Below, piece by piece: positions 35,680 to 43,907 of a stretch of DNA of 64,000 nucleotides. Each line of letters opens with the position of its first letter. Position 1 is the stretch's first letter. The notes beneath the pieces are model-generated. The model did not search any database and was not told the origin of the DNA. It saw only the letters and a program-made list of their open reading frames with translations. The position numbers were made by a program, and so were the translations under genes. Origin of the DNA: Bacteroidota bacterium (GTDB lineage Bacteria > Bacteroidota > Ignavibacteria > Kryptoniales > JAKASW01); assembly GCA_023381615.1 (NCBI GenBank), contig JAMCQL010000047.1, positions 1 through 64,000 on the forward strand. The letters run 5' to 3'.

Positions 35680-38600
35680 ATGATTAAAAGGGCGAAGGAA
35701 CCAAAATTGTCAAAAGACTTGGGTTTCCCAACTTATGAATTCCATATTTCCCGCAAAGCGCGCGACTCTTACAGTTTCGATGAGACTTTCTTTTCGATAA
35801 CCGGCGATGTCGTCTTCTCGAATTTCCGCGCGGCGCAGATATTTGCAGCTAAGATGAATGAGAAGAAAGTGGACGCAGGCAAAAGTCCCATGCCTGCGTC
35901 GGTCAAAGATAGTCCTCGTGTTTTGCCGGGTGAGATTAATGCGATGGGACTCTTTCATGAAGTTTTGCATTTCGTAATCGATTCTTACGTCCAAGAAATT
36001 AATCCTTCGGCATTCGCCCAGCTCGAAGAATGGCTGAAAAAAAACGTAGGCAAAGTCGACTTTGAAAAATGTTCAACTGAATTTGTTGAAGCGTTTCCGC
36101 CGACTTCTGTTTACAGTAAAGCAGAATCGGCGGAAAATTATCTCGCGCGGAACGAGAGCGGAATTTCGAACCGGCATATAGTTCTCAAGGAACTCATACT
36201 TTTATGGCTTGAGAACCGGAATCCGGCCTTCGATCCGATTTCAGAACTCATCGATGATTCTCAGTTGAAGTTGGAAACACCTTACGAGGCGGTCATTTCC
36301 AATACAGATAAATTCTTTGAGACACAGCCAAAATACGGGACGACGAACTCTTCGCTTCTGAAAATGCTCCTCGCACCGATCGAGGCGCATCCAAATTCGA
36401 TCGACAAACAATTACAGTTTATTGCCAAGCACTGGGGAAATATTCTTGCGAAGTCTCCACATCTTCTCAAACTTCTCAGCGCCATCGATTTCATAAAAGA
36501 AGAGGGGAAGTATTTCCTGATGTTGGCGCAAGCGCAGGCGGACAAAGAAAAAATTCCGAATGTGCTCCAAGCGGGATTCTTCGGATTTGGCGAAAAAGAA
36601 TCCGCGCCCGTACCGCAATTCCGCGGTGCCGGTTATGAATTTGAGCCGGAGAATTTCAGTTCTGATCTAAACTGGATGCCTCGTTTAGTTTTGATTGCAA
36701 AGAATGCATTTGTGTGGCTCGACCAGCTGAGCAAGAAATACCAGCGGACAATTACTCGTTTAGATCAAATTCCCGATGAGGAACTCGGGATTCTTTCAAG
36801 GCGCGGATTCAGCGGACTCTGGCTGATAGGAATTTGGCTTCGCAGTCACGCTTCTCAAAGAATAAAACATTTGAATGGCAACATGGACGCCATTGCTTCG
36901 GCGTATTCGTTGAATTCTTACGACATTTCGCCGGAGCTTGGTGGATTTGAAGCTTACCAGAATCTCAAAGAACGAGCATTGAAGTACGGAATCCGACTCG
37001 CGAGCGACATGGTTCCTAATCACATGGGAATTGATTCCGCGTGGGTCATGAACCATCCGGATTGGTTTCTGAAGTCTGACTATGCGCCGTTTCCTAACTA
37101 TACTTTCAATGGCCCAGACTTGAGCGGCGATGAACGAGTTGGAGTCTTCATCGAGGACGGGTACTGGTCAAAGCGAGATGCTGCAGTAGCGTTCAAGCGT
37201 CTCGACAGGTGGACCGGAGATGTGAAATATATTTATCATGGAAATGATGGCACACACATGCCGTGGAATGACACAGCGCAGTTAGATTTCACAAACCCAG
37301 AGGCACGGGAAGCAGTCATTCAATCGATCCTTCACGTTGCGCGAATGTTTTCGATAATTCGTTTCGATGCCGCAATGGTTTTGAGCAAAAAGCACTATCA
37401 GCGTCTGTGGTTTCCAGAGCCTGGAACCGGCGGCGCGATTCCGTCGCGTTCAAATTTCTCAATGACGAAAGAGCAATTTGACAGTGTTATGCCGGTCGAA
37501 TTTTGGCGCGAGGTTGTTGATCGAGTTCAGAAAGAAGCTCCAGACACCCTTTTGCTTGCAGAAGCTTTCTGGCTCATGGAAGGTTACTTTGTGCGGACTC
37601 TTGGGATGCATCGGGTTTACAACAGCGCTTTCATGAACATGCTGAAGCGAGAAGAGAATGCAAATTACCGGCAGGTGCTCAAGAATGTTTTAGAATATAA
37701 CCCGCAGATATTGAAACGCTTTGTAAATTTCCTAAACAATCCTGATGAGGAAACCGCGATTGCTCAGTTCGGCAAAGACGACAAGTACTTTGGAGTTTGT
37801 GTAATGATGTCGACAATGCCGGGTTTGCCGATGTTTGGACACGGACAGATAGAGGGATTCACCGAAAAGTATGGTATGGAATTCAGAAGGGCATACCGAG
37901 ATGAACATGCGGACGGGAATTTAGTATCGCGGCACGAGGGAGAGATTTTTCCGCTGCTGAAGAGAAGGCATCACTTTAGTGAGATGGACAACTTCTTGTT
38001 GTATGATTTCTTCGCAGGAGATGGGACAGTGAATGAAGATGTGTTCGCTTACAGCAACGGCATCGGGACCGAGCGCAATTTGGTCGTGTACAACAATCGC
38101 TTTTCTCATGCCGCCGGTTGGATAAGGACATCGGTTGGCTTTCGCGACCAAAACGGCAAGATGGTACAAAGGACTCTTGGCGACGGGCTCGCGCTTGCAG
38201 GAGGTAAGGACAACTACTGCATTTTCAAAGATGTGATAAGCGGCTTGGAATATATCAGATCTACGAAATCGTTGAAAAAACACGGGCTTTATGTGGAATT
38301 GGGCGCGTACAAGTACAATGTCTTCATGGATTTCAGAGTAGTCCACTCAACTACGGACAGGCCCTATGAAGAATTATTCAAGTCTTTGGAAGGGCGGGGC
38401 GTGCCTTCTATTGAAGAGGAAATTTTGAATCTGAAACTTCGGAAAATCCGTTCCGCATTTTATGAAGCGGTAAATGCAGGTAGTCTTCGTTACTTAATTG
38501 GCGGCTCGGCGAAAGGCAGGCTCAAGACTGATAGAGCGAAAGCCTTCAAGGAAAAATTTCATGGATTAATTTCCGCCTCCGAAGAATATGCCCGTATCAA

Positions 38601-39258
38601 AGTAGATGCTGGCGACCTATTGGAGGCCAAGCTAAAGGAGTATGAGATATTGCTGTCATTACCTGATCTTTCGAAGGAGCAGAAAGCGCGTGAATATGTT
38701 TTGAAGATACTTGGGGTTGAGAATGACATGTCGTTGCCGGGCTGGAGAATCTTATTCGTCTGGATTTTCCTTGATGGTGTTGGAAGGCTTCTGCAAAAAA
38801 CAACCGGTGAGCCACCCAGCTTGATCGACGATTGGCGTCTCGCGGATCAGATAAAAATCGGCTTCAACGAACTTGGGGTGAATGTTGAACTTGCAAGCTA
38901 TGAGACGAGAGTCTTGAAGGAGATGATAGATCTCAAATCAACCGTCGAAGAAAACCAAAGTTTCGAAGATGTGTTTCACCTATTACTTCGTAAAAATTCT
39001 GCCCAGGAACTCGTTGGAATTAATGAGTACAACGGAGTCAGGTATTTCAACAAAGAGCGGTTTGAAGATCTTATGGGTTATGTGGCATTGGTTTGGGCTG
39101 TCAAAGTCATCGCACGCCAGCGCGGAAAATCTTCGCGAGAAGATGAATCGGAACTTTTGAACGGAGTTGTGAATTCGGCGATTAAGTTGAAAAGACATGC
39201 GGGAAAGTCCGAATATCAATTTGATGAATTTCTAAGTGCAAGAGAGTCCCAAACTTAA
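35680..39258 (+). CDS. large alpha-amylase-family (GH13) protein
   Basis: 1192 residues with no signal peptide, so probably cytoplasmic. The first ~330 residues are a helical domain I do not recognise. The GH13 barrel follows: DMVPNHMG (about 445-452), RFDAAM with nucleophile D563, LLLAEAFW with acid/base E628, and NNPDEETA with D689; the usual His before the last Asp (NHD) is Pro here. GFTEKYGMEFRRAYRDE is typical of this long subfamily. The C-terminal ~350 residues are helical and unassigned. It would act on alpha-glucans such as glycogen. A palindrome is inserted in frame at residues 65-74. Confidence 0.85.
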   Translation: MIKRAKEPKLSKDLGFPTYEFHISRKARDSYSFDETFFSITGDVVFSNFRAAQIFAAKMNEKKVDAGKSPMPASVKDSPRVLPGEINAMGLFHEVLHFVIDSYVQEINPSAFAQLEEWLKKNVGKVDFEKCSTEFVEAFPPTSVYSKAESAENYLARNESGISNRHIVLKELILLWLENRNPAFDPISELIDDSQLKLETPYEAVISNTDKFFETQPKYGTTNSSLLKMLLAPIEAHPNSIDKQLQFIAKHWGNILAKSPHLLKLLSAIDFIKEEGKYFLMLAQAQADKEKIPNVLQAGFFGFGEKESAPVPQFRGAGYEFEPENFSSDLNWMPRLVLIAKNAFVWLDQLSKKYQRTITRLDQIPDEELGILSRRGFSGLWLIGIWLRSHASQRIKHLNGNMDAIASAYSLNSYDISPELGGFEAYQNLKERALKYGIRLASDMVPNHMGIDSAWVMNHPDWFLKSDYAPFPNYTFNGPDLSGDERVGVFIEDGYWSKRDAAVAFKRLDRWTGDVKYIYHGNDGTHMPWNDTAQLDFTNPEAREAVIQSILHVARMFSIIRFDAAMVLSKKHYQRLWFPEPGTGGAIPSRSNFSMTKEQFDSVMPVEFWREVVDRVQKEAPDTLLLAEAFWLMEGYFVRTLGMHRVYNSAFMNMLKREENANYRQVLKNVLEYNPQILKRFVNFLNNPDEETAIAQFGKDDKYFGVCVMMSTMPGLPMFGHGQIEGFTEKYGMEFRRAYRDEHADGNLVSRHEGEIFPLLKRRHHFSEMDNFLLYDFFAGDGTVNEDVFAYSNGIGTERNLVVYNNRFSHAAGWIRTSVGFRDQNGKMVQRTLGDGLALAGGKDNYCIFKDVISGLEYIRSTKSLKKHGLYVELGAYKYNVFMDFRVVHSTTDRPYEELFKSLEGRGVPSIEEEILNLKLRKIRSAFYEAVNAGSLRYLIGGSAKGRLKTDRAKAFKEKFHGLISASEEYARIKVDAGDLLEAKLKEYEILLSLPDLSKEQKAREYVLKILGVENDMSLPGWRILFVWIFLDGVGRLLQKTTGEPPSLIDDWRLADQIKIGFNELGVNVELASYETRVLKEMIDLKSTVEENQSFEDVFHLLLRKNSAQELVGINEYNGVRYFNKERFEDLMGYVALVWAVKVIARQRGKSSREDESELLNGVVNSAIKLKRHAGKSEYQFDEFLSARESQT
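35872..35900. repeat. in-frame palindrome inside the GH13 gene
   Basis: Perfect 10-bp arms GACGCAGGCA (35872-35881) and TGCCTGCGTC (35891-35900) with a nine-base loop. It is translated as DAGKSPMPAS within the N-terminal domain. Confidence 0.65.
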
Positions 39259-39416: not shown

Positions 39417-41198
39417 ATGCAGCTTACTTATGTCGACTGGATTGTAATAGCACTTTATTTCGCATTTAACTTGGCAGTAGGTTTGTATTACCGAAAACGT
39501 GCGACGCAGAGTGTCAGCGACTTTTTCGTCTCGGGTAGAAATGTTTCTTGGTGGCTTGCGGGCACTTCCATGGTTGCCACGACTTTTGCCGCCGACACAC
39601 CTCTTGCAGTTACAGGTCTCGTTGCGCGAAACGGTATCGCGGGTAATTGGATTTGGTGGAGCATGGCATTCAGCGGAATGCTGACAGTCTTCTTTTATGC
39701 TCGACTGTGGAGAAGAGCAGGAGTATTAACCGACGTTGAATTTGCCGAGATAAGATACAGCGGAAAGCCCGCGAGTTTTCTCCGGGGCTTCAGAGCGCTT
39801 TACCTGGGCATCCCGGTCAATCTCATAATAATGGGCTGGGTCAATCTTGCCATCGTGAAAATAATGATGTTGACTCTCGGAGTTTCGAAAGTTGAAGCGC
39901 TTGCATTTGCAATATTTATCATGTTTATAACGGCTTCCATTTCGACTCTCTCCGGATTATGGGGCGTTCTGGTTACCGATCTTTTTCAATTTGTCTTGAA
40001 AATGGGAATGGTGATTCTCCTCGCGGTCTTCGCAGTCCAGGCGACAGGCGGAATGGGAAGTCTAATCTCCGGGCTTCATCAAGTTGACCAGACAAGAGGG
40101 GTGGCTGGATCTGTTCTATCCTTCGTTCCGGACTTCAGCTCCGCTTGGATGCCGATGATAACTTTCTTTGTCTACATCGCGGTCAACTGGTGGGCATCGT
40201 GGTACCCGGGCGCCGAACCGGGCGGCGGCGGCTACATCGCGCAGAGGATTTTTTCGGCGAAGGACGAGAAGAATTCTGTTCTTGCAACGCTCTGGTTTAA
40301 CATTGCGCATTATGCTCTTCGTCCGTGGCCGTGGATAATCGTTGCGCTTGTTGCCGTCGTCCGGCTTCAGCATAATCCTGCTTTTATTCATGATCCGGAA
40401 TCGGGCTACATAATGATCTTGGTAAGTGATTTACCTGCGTCTCTCCGAGGTTTGATGCTCGCAGCATTTGCCGCGGCATACATGTCCACGATCGGCACTC
40501 AACTAAATTGGGGCGCGAGCTACATCGTCAACGATTTCTACAGGCGGTTTTGGATAAAGACTAAAAGCGAAAAGCACTATGTCAATGCTTCACAAGTAGC
40601 GACAATAATTTTGATGGTTTTATCTGCCATCGTCACATTTTACATGAATTCTATCGCGAACGCGTGGAAGTTTTTGATCGCATTAGGAGCGGGAACGGGA
40701 CTCGTCTACATTTTGCGCTGGTTCTGGTGGCGGATAAACGCATGGAGCGAGGTCTCTTCGATGGCGGCAGCACTCATCACTTCGCTTGTGCTTCAGTATT
40801 ATTTCAATTTGAGCGACACAGAACCGAGGGATTTTGCTTATCTCGTACTGCTCACTGTTCTGGTTACTACAGCAGTTTGGCTTATCGTGACTTTCATTAC
40901 TGCTCCCGAAAAGAAAGAAATTTTAGTTTCATTTTACAGACGCGTTCACCCAAGTGCAAAACTCTGGGGGCCGATCGCAAGGGAAGTTCCGGATGTACAG
41001 CCCGACAAAGATGGAATATTCAACTTAGTAGATTGGTTGAGCGGAGTTGCAATGATTTATTCGCTTCTTTTTGGGACTGGAAATATCATTTTTGGCAGGA
41101 CGCTTGTCGGACTGATAATGGTATTTGTTGGATTAGTCTTCGGTTCGATTATTTATATCGACTTGAACAAGCGCGGCTGGGCAACACTTGGTAAGTAA
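39417..41198 (+). CDS. sodium:solute symporter (SSS family)
   Basis: 593 residues, 13 or so membrane helices. The N-terminus VDWIVIALYFAFNLAVGLYYRKRATQSVSDFFVSGRNVSWWLAGTS is the family signature; GEPGGGGYIAQR-type loop (AEPGGGGYIAQRIFSAKDEKNS, about 263-284) is also conserved. It couples Na+ entry to uptake of a sugar, amino acid, carboxylate or similar solute; the substrate cannot be read. AAAGGAG precedes the ATG by seven bases. The methyltransferase trio starts 38 bases downstream, so the symporter may import the methyl donor; equally, it may serve the upstream GH13 gene. Confidence 0.9.
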   Translation: MQLTYVDWIVIALYFAFNLAVGLYYRKRATQSVSDFFVSGRNVSWWLAGTSMVATTFAADTPLAVTGLVARNGIAGNWIWWSMAFSGMLTVFFYARLWRRAGVLTDVEFAEIRYSGKPASFLRGFRALYLGIPVNLIIMGWVNLAIVKIMMLTLGVSKVEALAFAIFIMFITASISTLSGLWGVLVTDLFQFVLKMGMVILLAVFAVQATGGMGSLISGLHQVDQTRGVAGSVLSFVPDFSSAWMPMITFFVYIAVNWWASWYPGAEPGGGGYIAQRIFSAKDEKNSVLATLWFNIAHYALRPWPWIIVALVAVVRLQHNPAFIHDPESGYIMILVSDLPASLRGLMLAAFAAAYMSTIGTQLNWGASYIVNDFYRRFWIKTKSEKHYVNASQVATIILMVLSAIVTFYMNSIANAWKFLIALGAGTGLVYILRWFWWRINAWSEVSSMAAALITSLVLQYYFNLSDTEPRDFAYLVLLTVLVTTAVWLIVTFITAPEKKEILVSFYRRVHPSAKLWGPIAREVPDVQPDKDGIFNLVDWLSGVAMIYSLLFGTGNIIFGRTLVGLIMVFVGLVFGSIIYIDLNKRGWATLGK

Positions 41199-41236: not shown

Positions 41237-42382
41237 ATGACGCCCAAAGAACGCGTAAAGATTGCAATGGATCTCGGAGTGCCCGATCGAATTCCTCTGA
41301 TGTGTCAATTGAGCGTCGGGCACATGCTTCAACAGATCGAAGTTTCATCACTCGATTTCTGGTTCGACAAAGAGGTCTTTTCTGCTGGACTCATAAAACT
41401 CAGACAGATTTATGACTTTGACGGAATACTTGTAAGTCTGCATGGACATGATCCTAATTGGAAAAAGAGAATCAAGGCAAGGCAGTCGACGCAGGAAGGT
41501 GAAGAGATAATCCGGGAAAATGGCGATCGAATTTTATTCACTCGTGATGACCTCCCGCAAGTTGTACCGGCAAAAGAGAAACCGAAGCCCAATATTTTCG
41601 ACATTTCCCTGGGATCCTTCGGACAAGAGAAGGATCTGCCGGAAGAGCTTGATTACATTCCGGTCTCTCAAGGACTTCATTTCGAAATATGCAGGGAGCA
41701 CAAATTCGATGTCATTAACTCCATCATTGAAAAAGCAGGCGAACAATTCTCCATTCACGGTGAAGTGACTTCGCCATTTGACTACTTCCTCGATTTACTT
41801 GGACATCAGGATGCATTGATGGCACTTATCGATGAACCGGAGAAGTCGAAGCTTATTCTTGACCACTTCGCTGAGCTTGTATCCAAACTGACAAGCGAAA
41901 TGTGCGATACCGGTGTAGATGCTATCAAGCTGTCCTCTCCGTTCGCAGGCGCTGGTTTTATTTCTCCTAAATTTTACTCCGAGTTTGTTCTCCCTTTTGA
42001 GTCAAAAGTGGTTCGTGCTGCACGAGAAAAAGGAGTCCATATTTACATTCATACCTGCGGTGCCATCGGAGATCGGTTAGAGCTCCTGTTTGATTCCGGA
42101 GCAAGTGGAATCGAGTGTCTTGATCCTCCACCCCTTGGCAATGTCGAACTCAAAGAAGCAAAAGCGGTGGCGCGAAATAAAGGATTCATAAAAGGAAATG
42201 TTGATTCCGTTAACACGTTGCTTTTGGGAACCGATCAGGAGATAACGGAGGACACTCATCGCCGCCTCGAAATAGGGAAAGATGGGGGAGGTTTTATACT
42301 TAGTACAGCGTGTTCCATTGCACCCCGGGTCAAGCGTGCAAAAATATTGCTCCTAAGAGAGGCAGTAGAAAGATGGGGATAA
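41237..42382 (+). CDS. URO-D-superfamily zinc methyltransferase (corrinoid-dependent)
   Basis: 381 residues of the uroporphyrinogen decarboxylase superfamily. It lacks the RQAGR motif of HemE, and instead carries a zinc-site pattern like MtaA/MtbA: H272-x-C274 (IYIHTCGAIGD) and C359 (LSTACSIAP). Members with these ligands move methyl groups between a donor or acceptor and a corrinoid protein. The next two genes encode exactly such a corrinoid protein and a homocysteine methyltransferase; the stop codon overlaps the corrinoid gene start. I infer it demethylates an unknown substrate onto cobalamin. It could alternatively act in the reverse direction. Confidence 0.82.
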   Translation: MTPKERVKIAMDLGVPDRIPLMCQLSVGHMLQQIEVSSLDFWFDKEVFSAGLIKLRQIYDFDGILVSLHGHDPNWKKRIKARQSTQEGEEIIRENGDRILFTRDDLPQVVPAKEKPKPNIFDISLGSFGQEKDLPEELDYIPVSQGLHFEICREHKFDVINSIIEKAGEQFSIHGEVTSPFDYFLDLLGHQDALMALIDEPEKSKLILDHFAELVSKLTSEMCDTGVDAIKLSSPFAGAGFISPKFYSEFVLPFESKVVRAAREKGVHIYIHTCGAIGDRLELLFDSGASGIECLDPPPLGNVELKEAKAVARNKGFIKGNVDSVNTLLLGTDQEITEDTHRRLEIGKDGGGFILSTACSIAPRVKRAKILLLREAVERWG

Positions 42383-43023
42383 CCGATGAACTCGGCAGCC
42401 TTGCTCGAGCCGTGATCGATGGCAAGCATTTGGATGCTGAAAGCTTAACCTTCCGCCTGTTAGAAGAAGGCATCGAAGCAAGAACAATTCTTGACGATGG
42501 ACTGCTGCCTGGAATGGATGTAGTTGGACGGTGTTTCAGAGATAATCTAATTTTTCTTCCACAAGTGTTGGTCTCCGCGCGTGCCATGAAAGTCTCGATG
42601 AAAATCCTTGAACCGCTGCTTGCTAATGCGAAGATAAAGTCGAAGGGGAAAATTCTATTTGGAACAGTCAAGGGTGACTTTCATGACATAGGAAAGAACA
42701 TCGTCGAAATCATGCTTCAGGGAACGGGATATACTGTCATAGATATCGGCACCGACTGCGATAAAAACAAATTCTTGCTCGGATTTGAACAACATAAGCC
42801 GGATGTTATTGGAATCTCAGCAATGCTGACCACGACGATGGTCTACATGAAAGTCGTGATTGATTATCTTCGTGAGAAAAAAGTGAGCGTTCCGATAATT
42901 GTCGGAGGCGCCCCACTCAATAAGAAGTTTTCCGAAGAAATTGGTGCGACTGGATACGGAAAAAATGCGGCCGATGCTGTTGAGCTTGTGAAAAACATCT
43001 TGAAGGGTCAGGTGCAAAGATGA
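42373..43023 (+). CDS. corrinoid (cobalamin-binding) methyl carrier protein
   Basis: 216 residues from the ATG at 42373, which overlaps the upstream stop by ten bases. Residues 1-85 form the helical cap typical of MtaC/MtbC and MetH (AVIDGKHLDAESLTFRLLEEG, GLLPGMDVVGRCF, FLPQVLVSARAMKVSMKIL). Residues 92-216 form the B12 Rossmann domain with D102-F-H104-D-I-G107; H104 is the lower cobalt ligand. VIGISAMLTTTM and VGGAPLN are the further cobalamin-contact loops. The last four bases overlap the homocysteine methyltransferase gene. Confidence 0.94.
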   Translation: MGITDELGSLARAVIDGKHLDAESLTFRLLEEGIEARTILDDGLLPGMDVVGRCFRDNLIFLPQVLVSARAMKVSMKILEPLLANAKIKSKGKILFGTVKGDFHDIGKNIVEIMLQGTGYTVIDIGTDCDKNKFLLGFEQHKPDVIGISAMLTTTMVYMKVVIDYLREKKVSVPIIVGGAPLNKKFSEEIGATGYGKNAADAVELVKNILKGQVQR

Positions 43024-43907
43024 ACACCATCGAAAAATTACTTAGATCCAAGCCGGTACTATTTGACGGTGCAACCGGAACCGAGCTGCAGAAGCGCGGA
43101 CTTCCTGCAGGCGTAGCTCCTGAACTCTGGAATCTTGAAAAGCCGGAAGTAGTTGAAGAAGTCGCTCGTAATTATGTCAGAGCTGGAGCGTTTGTAATCG
43201 AAACGAATTCCTTCGGTGGAAATCGCAAAAGATTAGAAGCCGGAGGAATAGATAGAAAGATCAATGACGTCAATATCGGCGCTGTGAAAAGTGCGCTCAA
43301 AGCGGCGAACAAGGACGCGGTTGTTATCGGATCGATCGGTCCATTGGGAACCCTAATTGAGCCGTTGGGTGAAACAAGCAGAGTCGGGGCGAAGGATCTC
43401 TTTCGTGAACAAACGGAAATTCTCCTTAAAACCGGTGTCCATGTGGTTCTAGTCGAAACGATGATTTCGCTTGATGAAGCTCTGCTGGCTCTCGCGGGCG
43501 CGAAGGAGGCGGGATGCGAAGAAGTTGGCGTAACAATGACCTTTGAAGTAAAGGCGAATGGCGTTCGCACTCCTTTTGGAGAGGATGTTGCGAAAGTTGC
43601 AGAAAGTCTCGAAAGAGCAGGAGCAAGTTTTATCGGCTCTAACTGTGGGAACGGTTTTGAGGAAATGCTGGTTGTCGCCAAAGAGATGAGGATATCCACA
43701 GGATTACCTTTGTTGATTCAACCTAATGCTGGACTTCCCGTTTATAATGGGAATGGAATATCGTATCCGGGAACGCCGGAACAGTTTACGGAATTTGTTG
43801 TGAAGGCGGTATCTATGGGAATTGACTTCGTAGGAGGCTGCTGCGGGACAACTCCTGCTCACATCGCGGCTGCTCACGGCTCTCTTGAACAATTGAGAGT
43901 AAAATGA
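43020..43907 (+). CDS. homocysteine S-methyltransferase (MetH Hcy-domain type)
   Basis: 295 residues, a stand-alone Hcy-binding barrel. FDGATGTELQKRGL (about 15-28) opens the domain; zinc ligands are C209 (IGSNCGNG) and C274/C275 (VGGCCGTTPAHI). It transfers a methyl group to homocysteine, making methionine. It has no folate, cobalamin or reactivation domain, while the preceding gene (ATGA overlap) is a separate corrinoid protein. Together they reproduce two modules of MetH. S-methylmethionine or betaine as direct donors is a less likely alternative given the context. Confidence 0.92.
   Translation: MNTIEKLLRSKPVLFDGATGTELQKRGLPAGVAPELWNLEKPEVVEEVARNYVRAGAFVIETNSFGGNRKRLEAGGIDRKINDVNIGAVKSALKAANKDAVVIGSIGPLGTLIEPLGETSRVGAKDLFREQTEILLKTGVHVVLVETMISLDEALLALAGAKEAGCEEVGVTMTFEVKANGVRTPFGEDVAKVAESLERAGASFIGSNCGNGFEEMLVVAKEMRISTGLPLLIQPNAGLPVYNGNGISYPGTPEQFTEFVVKAVSMGIDFVGGCCGTTPAHIAAAHGSLEQLRVK

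Follow-up and report, generated by a model that had tools for sequence, protein, structure and literature searches.

The modular construction of corrinoid-dependent methionine synthesis is not itself a new idea, having precedents in Phaeobacter and Ruegeria. In Phaeobacter inhibens, a three-part MetH makes methionine with a separate homocysteine methyltransferase and corrinoid protein, with a pterin-binding protein as the third part and activation by other proteins of the RamA-like and DUF1638 types (Price 2018, PMC5764234). The MtgBCDE system of Ruegeria pomeroyi uses one corrinoid protein for both glycine betaine demethylation and methionine synthesis, with a PF06253 donor enzyme for glycine betaine and a bidirectional folate module, MtgD (PNAS 2025, PMC12478193). 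UroD-type donor enzymes are found, first, in the Type 1 mlp clusters, where two or three Mlps, among them a UroD with a His-Cys-Cys zinc site, accompany a corrinoid protein and a Ram/RACE activase without a folate methyltransferase; the core genes include no dedicated homocysteine transferase, and recycling of the methyl group to methionine has been proposed (Kountz and Balskus, PMC10418091). Second, the Cdm, Odm and Mtv systems combine a UroD-type donor enzyme and a corrinoid protein with tetrahydrofolate as the acceptor, and CdmB is without zinc (PMC13222342).

Here, we describe a three-gene set, preceded by a symporter gene, in a 64,000-nucleotide stretch of DNA from a Bacteroidota bacterium (the window):

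39417..41198, plus strand: SSF, sodium:solute symporter, 593 aa (SSF 6.6e-26)
41237..42382, plus strand: URO, URO-D-superfamily methyltransferase, 381 aa (Pfam URO-D 1.4e-32); proposed donor module
42373..43023, plus strand: COR, stand-alone corrinoid protein, 216 aa (B12-binding 1.6e-24, cap 2.8e-18); methyl carrier
43020..43907, plus strand: HMT, homocysteine S-methyltransferase, 295 aa (S-methyl_trans 2.5e-60); acceptor module

Like the P. inhibens MetH, this set has a separate homocysteine methyltransferase and corrinoid protein predicted to make methionine, and activation would come from other proteins; however, its third member is a UroD protein rather than a pterin-binding one, and there is neither an activase in the operon nor a RACo in the genome. 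With MtgBCDE it shares a non-folate methyl donor predicted to feed a corrinoid protein common to the homocysteine module, but the donor is a URO-D protein (PF01208) and not one of PF06253, and the operon has no folate gene while MetH is kept in the genome. It resembles the Type 1 mlp clusters in its UroD with His-Cys-Cys (here a sequence motif) and corrinoid protein and in the want of a folate methyltransferase, yet it has one UroD, without Mlp2 and Mlp3, no Ram/RACE activase (no RACo_C_ter match in the genome) and an HMT of its own. It is like Cdm, Odm and Mtv in its UroD-type enzyme and corrinoid protein, though with a homocysteine rather than a tetrahydrofolate module and a predicted zinc site. 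Finally, it has the homocysteine and B12 modules of MetH, but the operon contains neither a pterin nor an activation domain, and MetH itself lies elsewhere in the genome. What is distinct here, to judge by gene content, is a predicted UroD donor hard-wired to its own COR and HMT and lacking both a folate partner and a Ram/RACE activase; the literature searched describes no UroD-type donor that comes with a corrinoid protein and a homocysteine methyltransferase of its own.

The three proteins and their predicted relay

On re-examination, the open reading frames, motif residues and 4-10 base overlaps of the preliminary description all proved exact: URO and COR overlap by 10 bases (42373-42382), COR starting at the ATG at 42373, and COR and HMT by 4 bases (43020-43023). 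None of the three proteins reaches a curated NCBIfam cut-off, and so they cannot simply be assigned to any named subfamily. In a profile search the top solved relative of URO is MtaA of Methanosarcina (4ay7/4ay8), whose H-x-C and C align with H272, C274 and C359 of URO, that is, with its predicted zinc site (H272-x-C274 plus C359); against TIGR01463 (MtaA/CmuA family methyltransferase) it scores 96.9 bits, below the cut-off of 235.4. The AF2 model of URO (pLDDT 94) is nearest in fold to MtaA, followed by HemE and then MetE. Across the URO-family alignment H272 and C274 are present in 81/81 sequences and C359 in all 79 readable rows, with H174, E176, D182, Y183, K231, E293, C294, D296, K319, N321 and D323 as further invariant positions of the 81. 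Both modelled fold and ligands agree with a UroD-superfamily corrinoid methyltransferase, for which methyl transfer itself is predicted.

The closest solved structure to COR is 1y80, the next being the trimethylamine corrinoid protein, methyltransferase 1 (2i2x) and the MetH B12 modules. As in MetH, it comprises a B12 cap and a B12-binding domain with DxHxxG, here DFHDIG at residues 102-107, which makes H104 the lower ligand; D102, H104 and G107 are conserved in 21/21 readable rows. Among solved structures, HMT is closest to the homocysteine module of Thermotoga maritima MetH (1q7m) and, like it, is a homocysteine module with a Cys3 zinc site, the ligands of which are C209 (11/11), C274 (10/11) and C275 (11/11). 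In one locus from the window's own genus (L053:9116-9499; genome G002, contig C77) COR is reduced to 127 aa by an in-frame gap of ~89 residues that takes in the cobalt ligand H104, with the flanking URO and HMT both intact; the gap is either a deletion or an assembly error. Across the window, an Rfam search at gathering score returned two tRNAs only, with no cobalamin or SAM riboswitch. The region upstream of the symporter (35680-39258) encodes a protein of 1192 aa whose central part weakly matches an alpha-amylase domain and whose two ends contain no recognised domains.

We propose that URO, COR and HMT probably constitute a modular corrinoid methyl-transfer chain running from a donor through URO and COR to homocysteine. 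Here, the zinc-containing URO would bind a methylated compound and move its methyl group to the Co(I) of COR, and the methyl-Co(III) form of COR would dock on HMT, whereupon methionine would be made and Co(I) regenerated. Co(II) arising from accidental oxidation would be rescued by an activation domain acting in trans; the split MetH is its most likely source in this genome. Methionine synthesis would gain a second source of methyl groups from such a relay. We infer the direction of transfer and the docking by analogy with MtaA, with MetH and with the system of Ruegeria, and likewise the reactivation in trans and the substrate class.

Recurrence and assembly of the gene set

When two peptide patterns of the URO family were run against 84,980 species genomes, at least 137 stretches were returned, 80 of which were fetched; counts over 81 are these and the window. 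The fetched loci belong to Ignavibacteria, Aminicenantes, Bacteroidales, Marinimicrobia and others. The order URO-COR-HMT is seen in 10 of them and in the window (11/81, some loci ending at contig edges), and gene overlaps like those of the window are seen again in several; this recurrence rules out a chance origin of the overlapping arrangement. That the three genes are kept together holds, then, for a recurrent minority. Most URO loci have no adjacent COR or HMT, and in three (L056 of genome G011, L059 and L092) URO is followed by COR without HMT. Where URO stands apart, it may use a COR encoded elsewhere or do something else; genomes with a solitary URO often have an HMT-COR or COR-HMT pair at another location (G056, G038, G047 and G008), which fits a shared hub. 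A stand-alone COR is present in 13/13 genomes with a clear URO orthologue as opposed to 12/46 without one (Fisher p=1.3e-6, computed without correction for relatedness; G023 and G051, with partial or weaker URO matches, were left out of the 13).

The trees of the three proteins point to repeated assembly. On the URO tree this gene context requires seven changes, at least four of them forced by supported branches, so the context has been gained or lost repeatedly. A clade of HMTs with support 99/98 unites the window with 8 of the 10 URO-COR-HMT loci and one further HMT (G058), and the matching CORs lie near one another in a group without resolution at its base. In L060 and L062, COR and HMT fall inside another lineage (100/100 branches), whose other members are found with a different UroD and a free-standing activation domain. 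Two COR-HMT sources behind one URO family argue for a functional link, as opposed to mere shared descent of the block, and the trees support the view that the URO family has been placed before COR-HMT at least twice.

The relay of methyl groups through cobalamin to homocysteine, as first proposed from the window, gains support from the recurrent order, the two COR-HMT lineages and the stand-alone COR in 13/13 genomes, together with the conserved zinc and cobalt ligands and the MtaA-like fold. Counting against it are L056 and L059 without HMT, the L053 COR without H104, the many URO loci with neither partner and the lack of an activase gene in the window's operon. If the relay is true, Ignavibacteria and some Bacteroidetes could take the methyl groups of methionine from some environmental compound, with no need of folate, and the distribution of the URO family would mark who might run it.

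Bacteroidales show a variant in which URO follows COR, some loci adding a second UroD, a CobW GTPase and a stand-alone MetH-activation-domain protein. One such second UroD (L111:5075-6433) carries a C-terminal extension with CxxC, thioredoxin-like by eye, and the CobW GTPase beside it could supply zinc. In another relative an MtaB-like methanol:corrinoid methyltransferase (L139:7605-8984) adjoins COR and a UroD protein, and in yet another (L140:4997-17873) there is an island of COR, activation domain, PfkB kinase, three UroD paralogues, GFO/IDH and HMT.

Candidate substrates

Two substrate classes, both compatible with the relay, find some support. MtaA acts on a thiol, and the substrate of URO could, as a tentative proposal, be a methylated sulfur or selenium compound whose methyl group (e.g. 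from methylthio-compounds) is salvaged into methionine. The invariant His-Cys-Cys of URO, aligned with MtaA, accords with the rule of Kountz and Balskus linking this triad to S- or Se-methyl substrates, and recycling of such methyl groups into methionine is proposed in the same work (PMC10418091). Against this, no sulfur or selenium genes appear among the named neighbours in the partial annotation of the fetched loci. Moreover, MtaB uses two Cys and a Glu for methanol, so oxygen is compatible with a pair of Cys ligands.

The alternative of an O-methylated sugar or polyol, entering through SSF, having its ether methyl removed anaerobically and then being catabolised as a sugar, strikes us as rather doubtful, though several neighbours point to it. 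SSF ends 38 bases before URO, 10 loci, the window among them, have a homologue close to URO, and among solved transporters SSF is closest to vSGLT, followed by a putative sodium:solute symporter and SGLT1; it is a possible importer of the methylated substrate. Near URO we also found a rhamnosidase, GFO/IDH, AP_endonuc_2 (xylose-isomerase-like), GH28, GH13, a GATase1-like protein and a sulfatase, and beside related islands of UroD, COR, HMT and activation domain there are PfkB, PFK, a sugar MFS transporter and GFO/IDH. The annotated neighbours were picked by hand, so their carbohydrate flavor is a lead only. Among the families listed, at most 25 per list, GH78, GH20, GH94 and GH3 occur in sampled near neighbours and in none of the far ones, in a small sample compared without a statistical test. 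However, the context is mixed, including also urocanase, glutamate synthase, HypD, radical SAM and saccharopine dehydrogenase; the zinc site of URO is of the thiol type; and the literature searched gave no sugar-demethylating UroD enzyme and no direct precedent for an anaerobic, corrinoid-dependent removal of methyl groups from sugars. His-Cys-Cys argues for S- or Se-methyl compounds, and the neighbours hint at methylated sugars. A wider scheme, which we regard as unlikely, is an anaerobic B12 route from the methyl groups of methylated sugars or polyols to methionine, in which several UroDs of differing specificity would feed one COR-HMT hub, and a stand-alone activation domain of the MetH type would serve this hub as activase.

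Methionine synthase, folate and proposed corrinoid reactivation in the same genome

The preliminary description saw in this set a methionine synthase with its folate module replaced. This is not supported: the genome (94% complete) encodes a full MetH split over two adjacent genes (HMT-pterin, 609 aa; B12-activation, 588 aa) as well as a YitJ-like bifunctional HMT-MTHFR, and MetH-type activation domains are present in 13/13 genomes with a clear URO orthologue. Accordingly, replacement of MetH is ruled out; the set stands beside MetH and adds to it, and is most readily understood as one more route by which methyl groups enter methionine. A MetE/Mes-type alternative is absent from the genome, which has no MetE-type catalytic domain (PF01717) and none of the core methionine synthases MesA-D. 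The proposed bypass of methyl-folate, on the other hand, is supported by gene content. The operon has no pterin (methyl-folate) domain, and those of the genome are confined to a FolP-like protein (282 aa, contig C71) and the MetH half on contig C56, beyond which there is no stand-alone methyl-corrinoid:folate transferase; the operon therefore provides for no acceptor besides homocysteine.

The pterin domain of that MetH half does open another reading, namely that COR and HMT are a split MetH paralogue, a spare methionine synthase borrowing the HMT-pterin half in trans, with URO as an occasional feeder or a bystander. It could draw on the HMT-COR pairs of G056, G038 and G047, which have no URO beside them, and on Ruegeria MtgD as precedent for a folate module in trans (PMC12478193). 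We consider it improbable, as URO is the gene immediately before COR in each of the two lineages that were assembled separately, the frames overlapping in several loci, and a stand-alone COR accompanies URO in every one of the 13 genomes.

That URO is instead a uroporphyrinogen decarboxylase, with which it shares a Pfam superfamily, deserves next to no credence, since it scores 35.5 bits for TIGR01464 (HemE), where the cut-off is 303, the HemE proteins shown are without the aligned H-x-C and C, and a genuine HemE of 412 bits on contig C7 is the single URO match in the genome besides URO itself, the one UroD of the operon. The preliminary description had set its proposal against a full metH combined with a porphyrin role of URO; the former is present and the latter excluded, and the comparisons support URO as a probable MtaA-like enzyme.

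With no activase in the window's operon, the sole activation domain of the genome is that of the split MetH on C56, and RACo/RamA are absent (no RACo_C_ter match). In two related loci a stand-alone MetH-type activation domain (PF02965) directly follows HMT, and in one relative RACo lies beside URO; this company indicates that the set belongs with corrinoid chemistry. The need for a separate activase, as originally surmised, is thus a fair inference from these loci and from the missing RACo/RamA. Taking the preferred reading of a URO-COR-HMT relay, the simplest arrangement would be reactivation of COR in trans by the MetH activation half, made plausible by the stand-alone domains of the relatives. 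The set is a definite starting point in the search for what an uncharacterised UroD family acts on and for a corrinoid activase of a new, stand-alone type. Beside corrinoid proteins in three loci (L108:7366-7998, L060:10793-11530 and L051:7420-8151) there are stand-alone proteins of 210-245 aa that match only the C-terminal half of PF02965, possibly a widespread separate activase.
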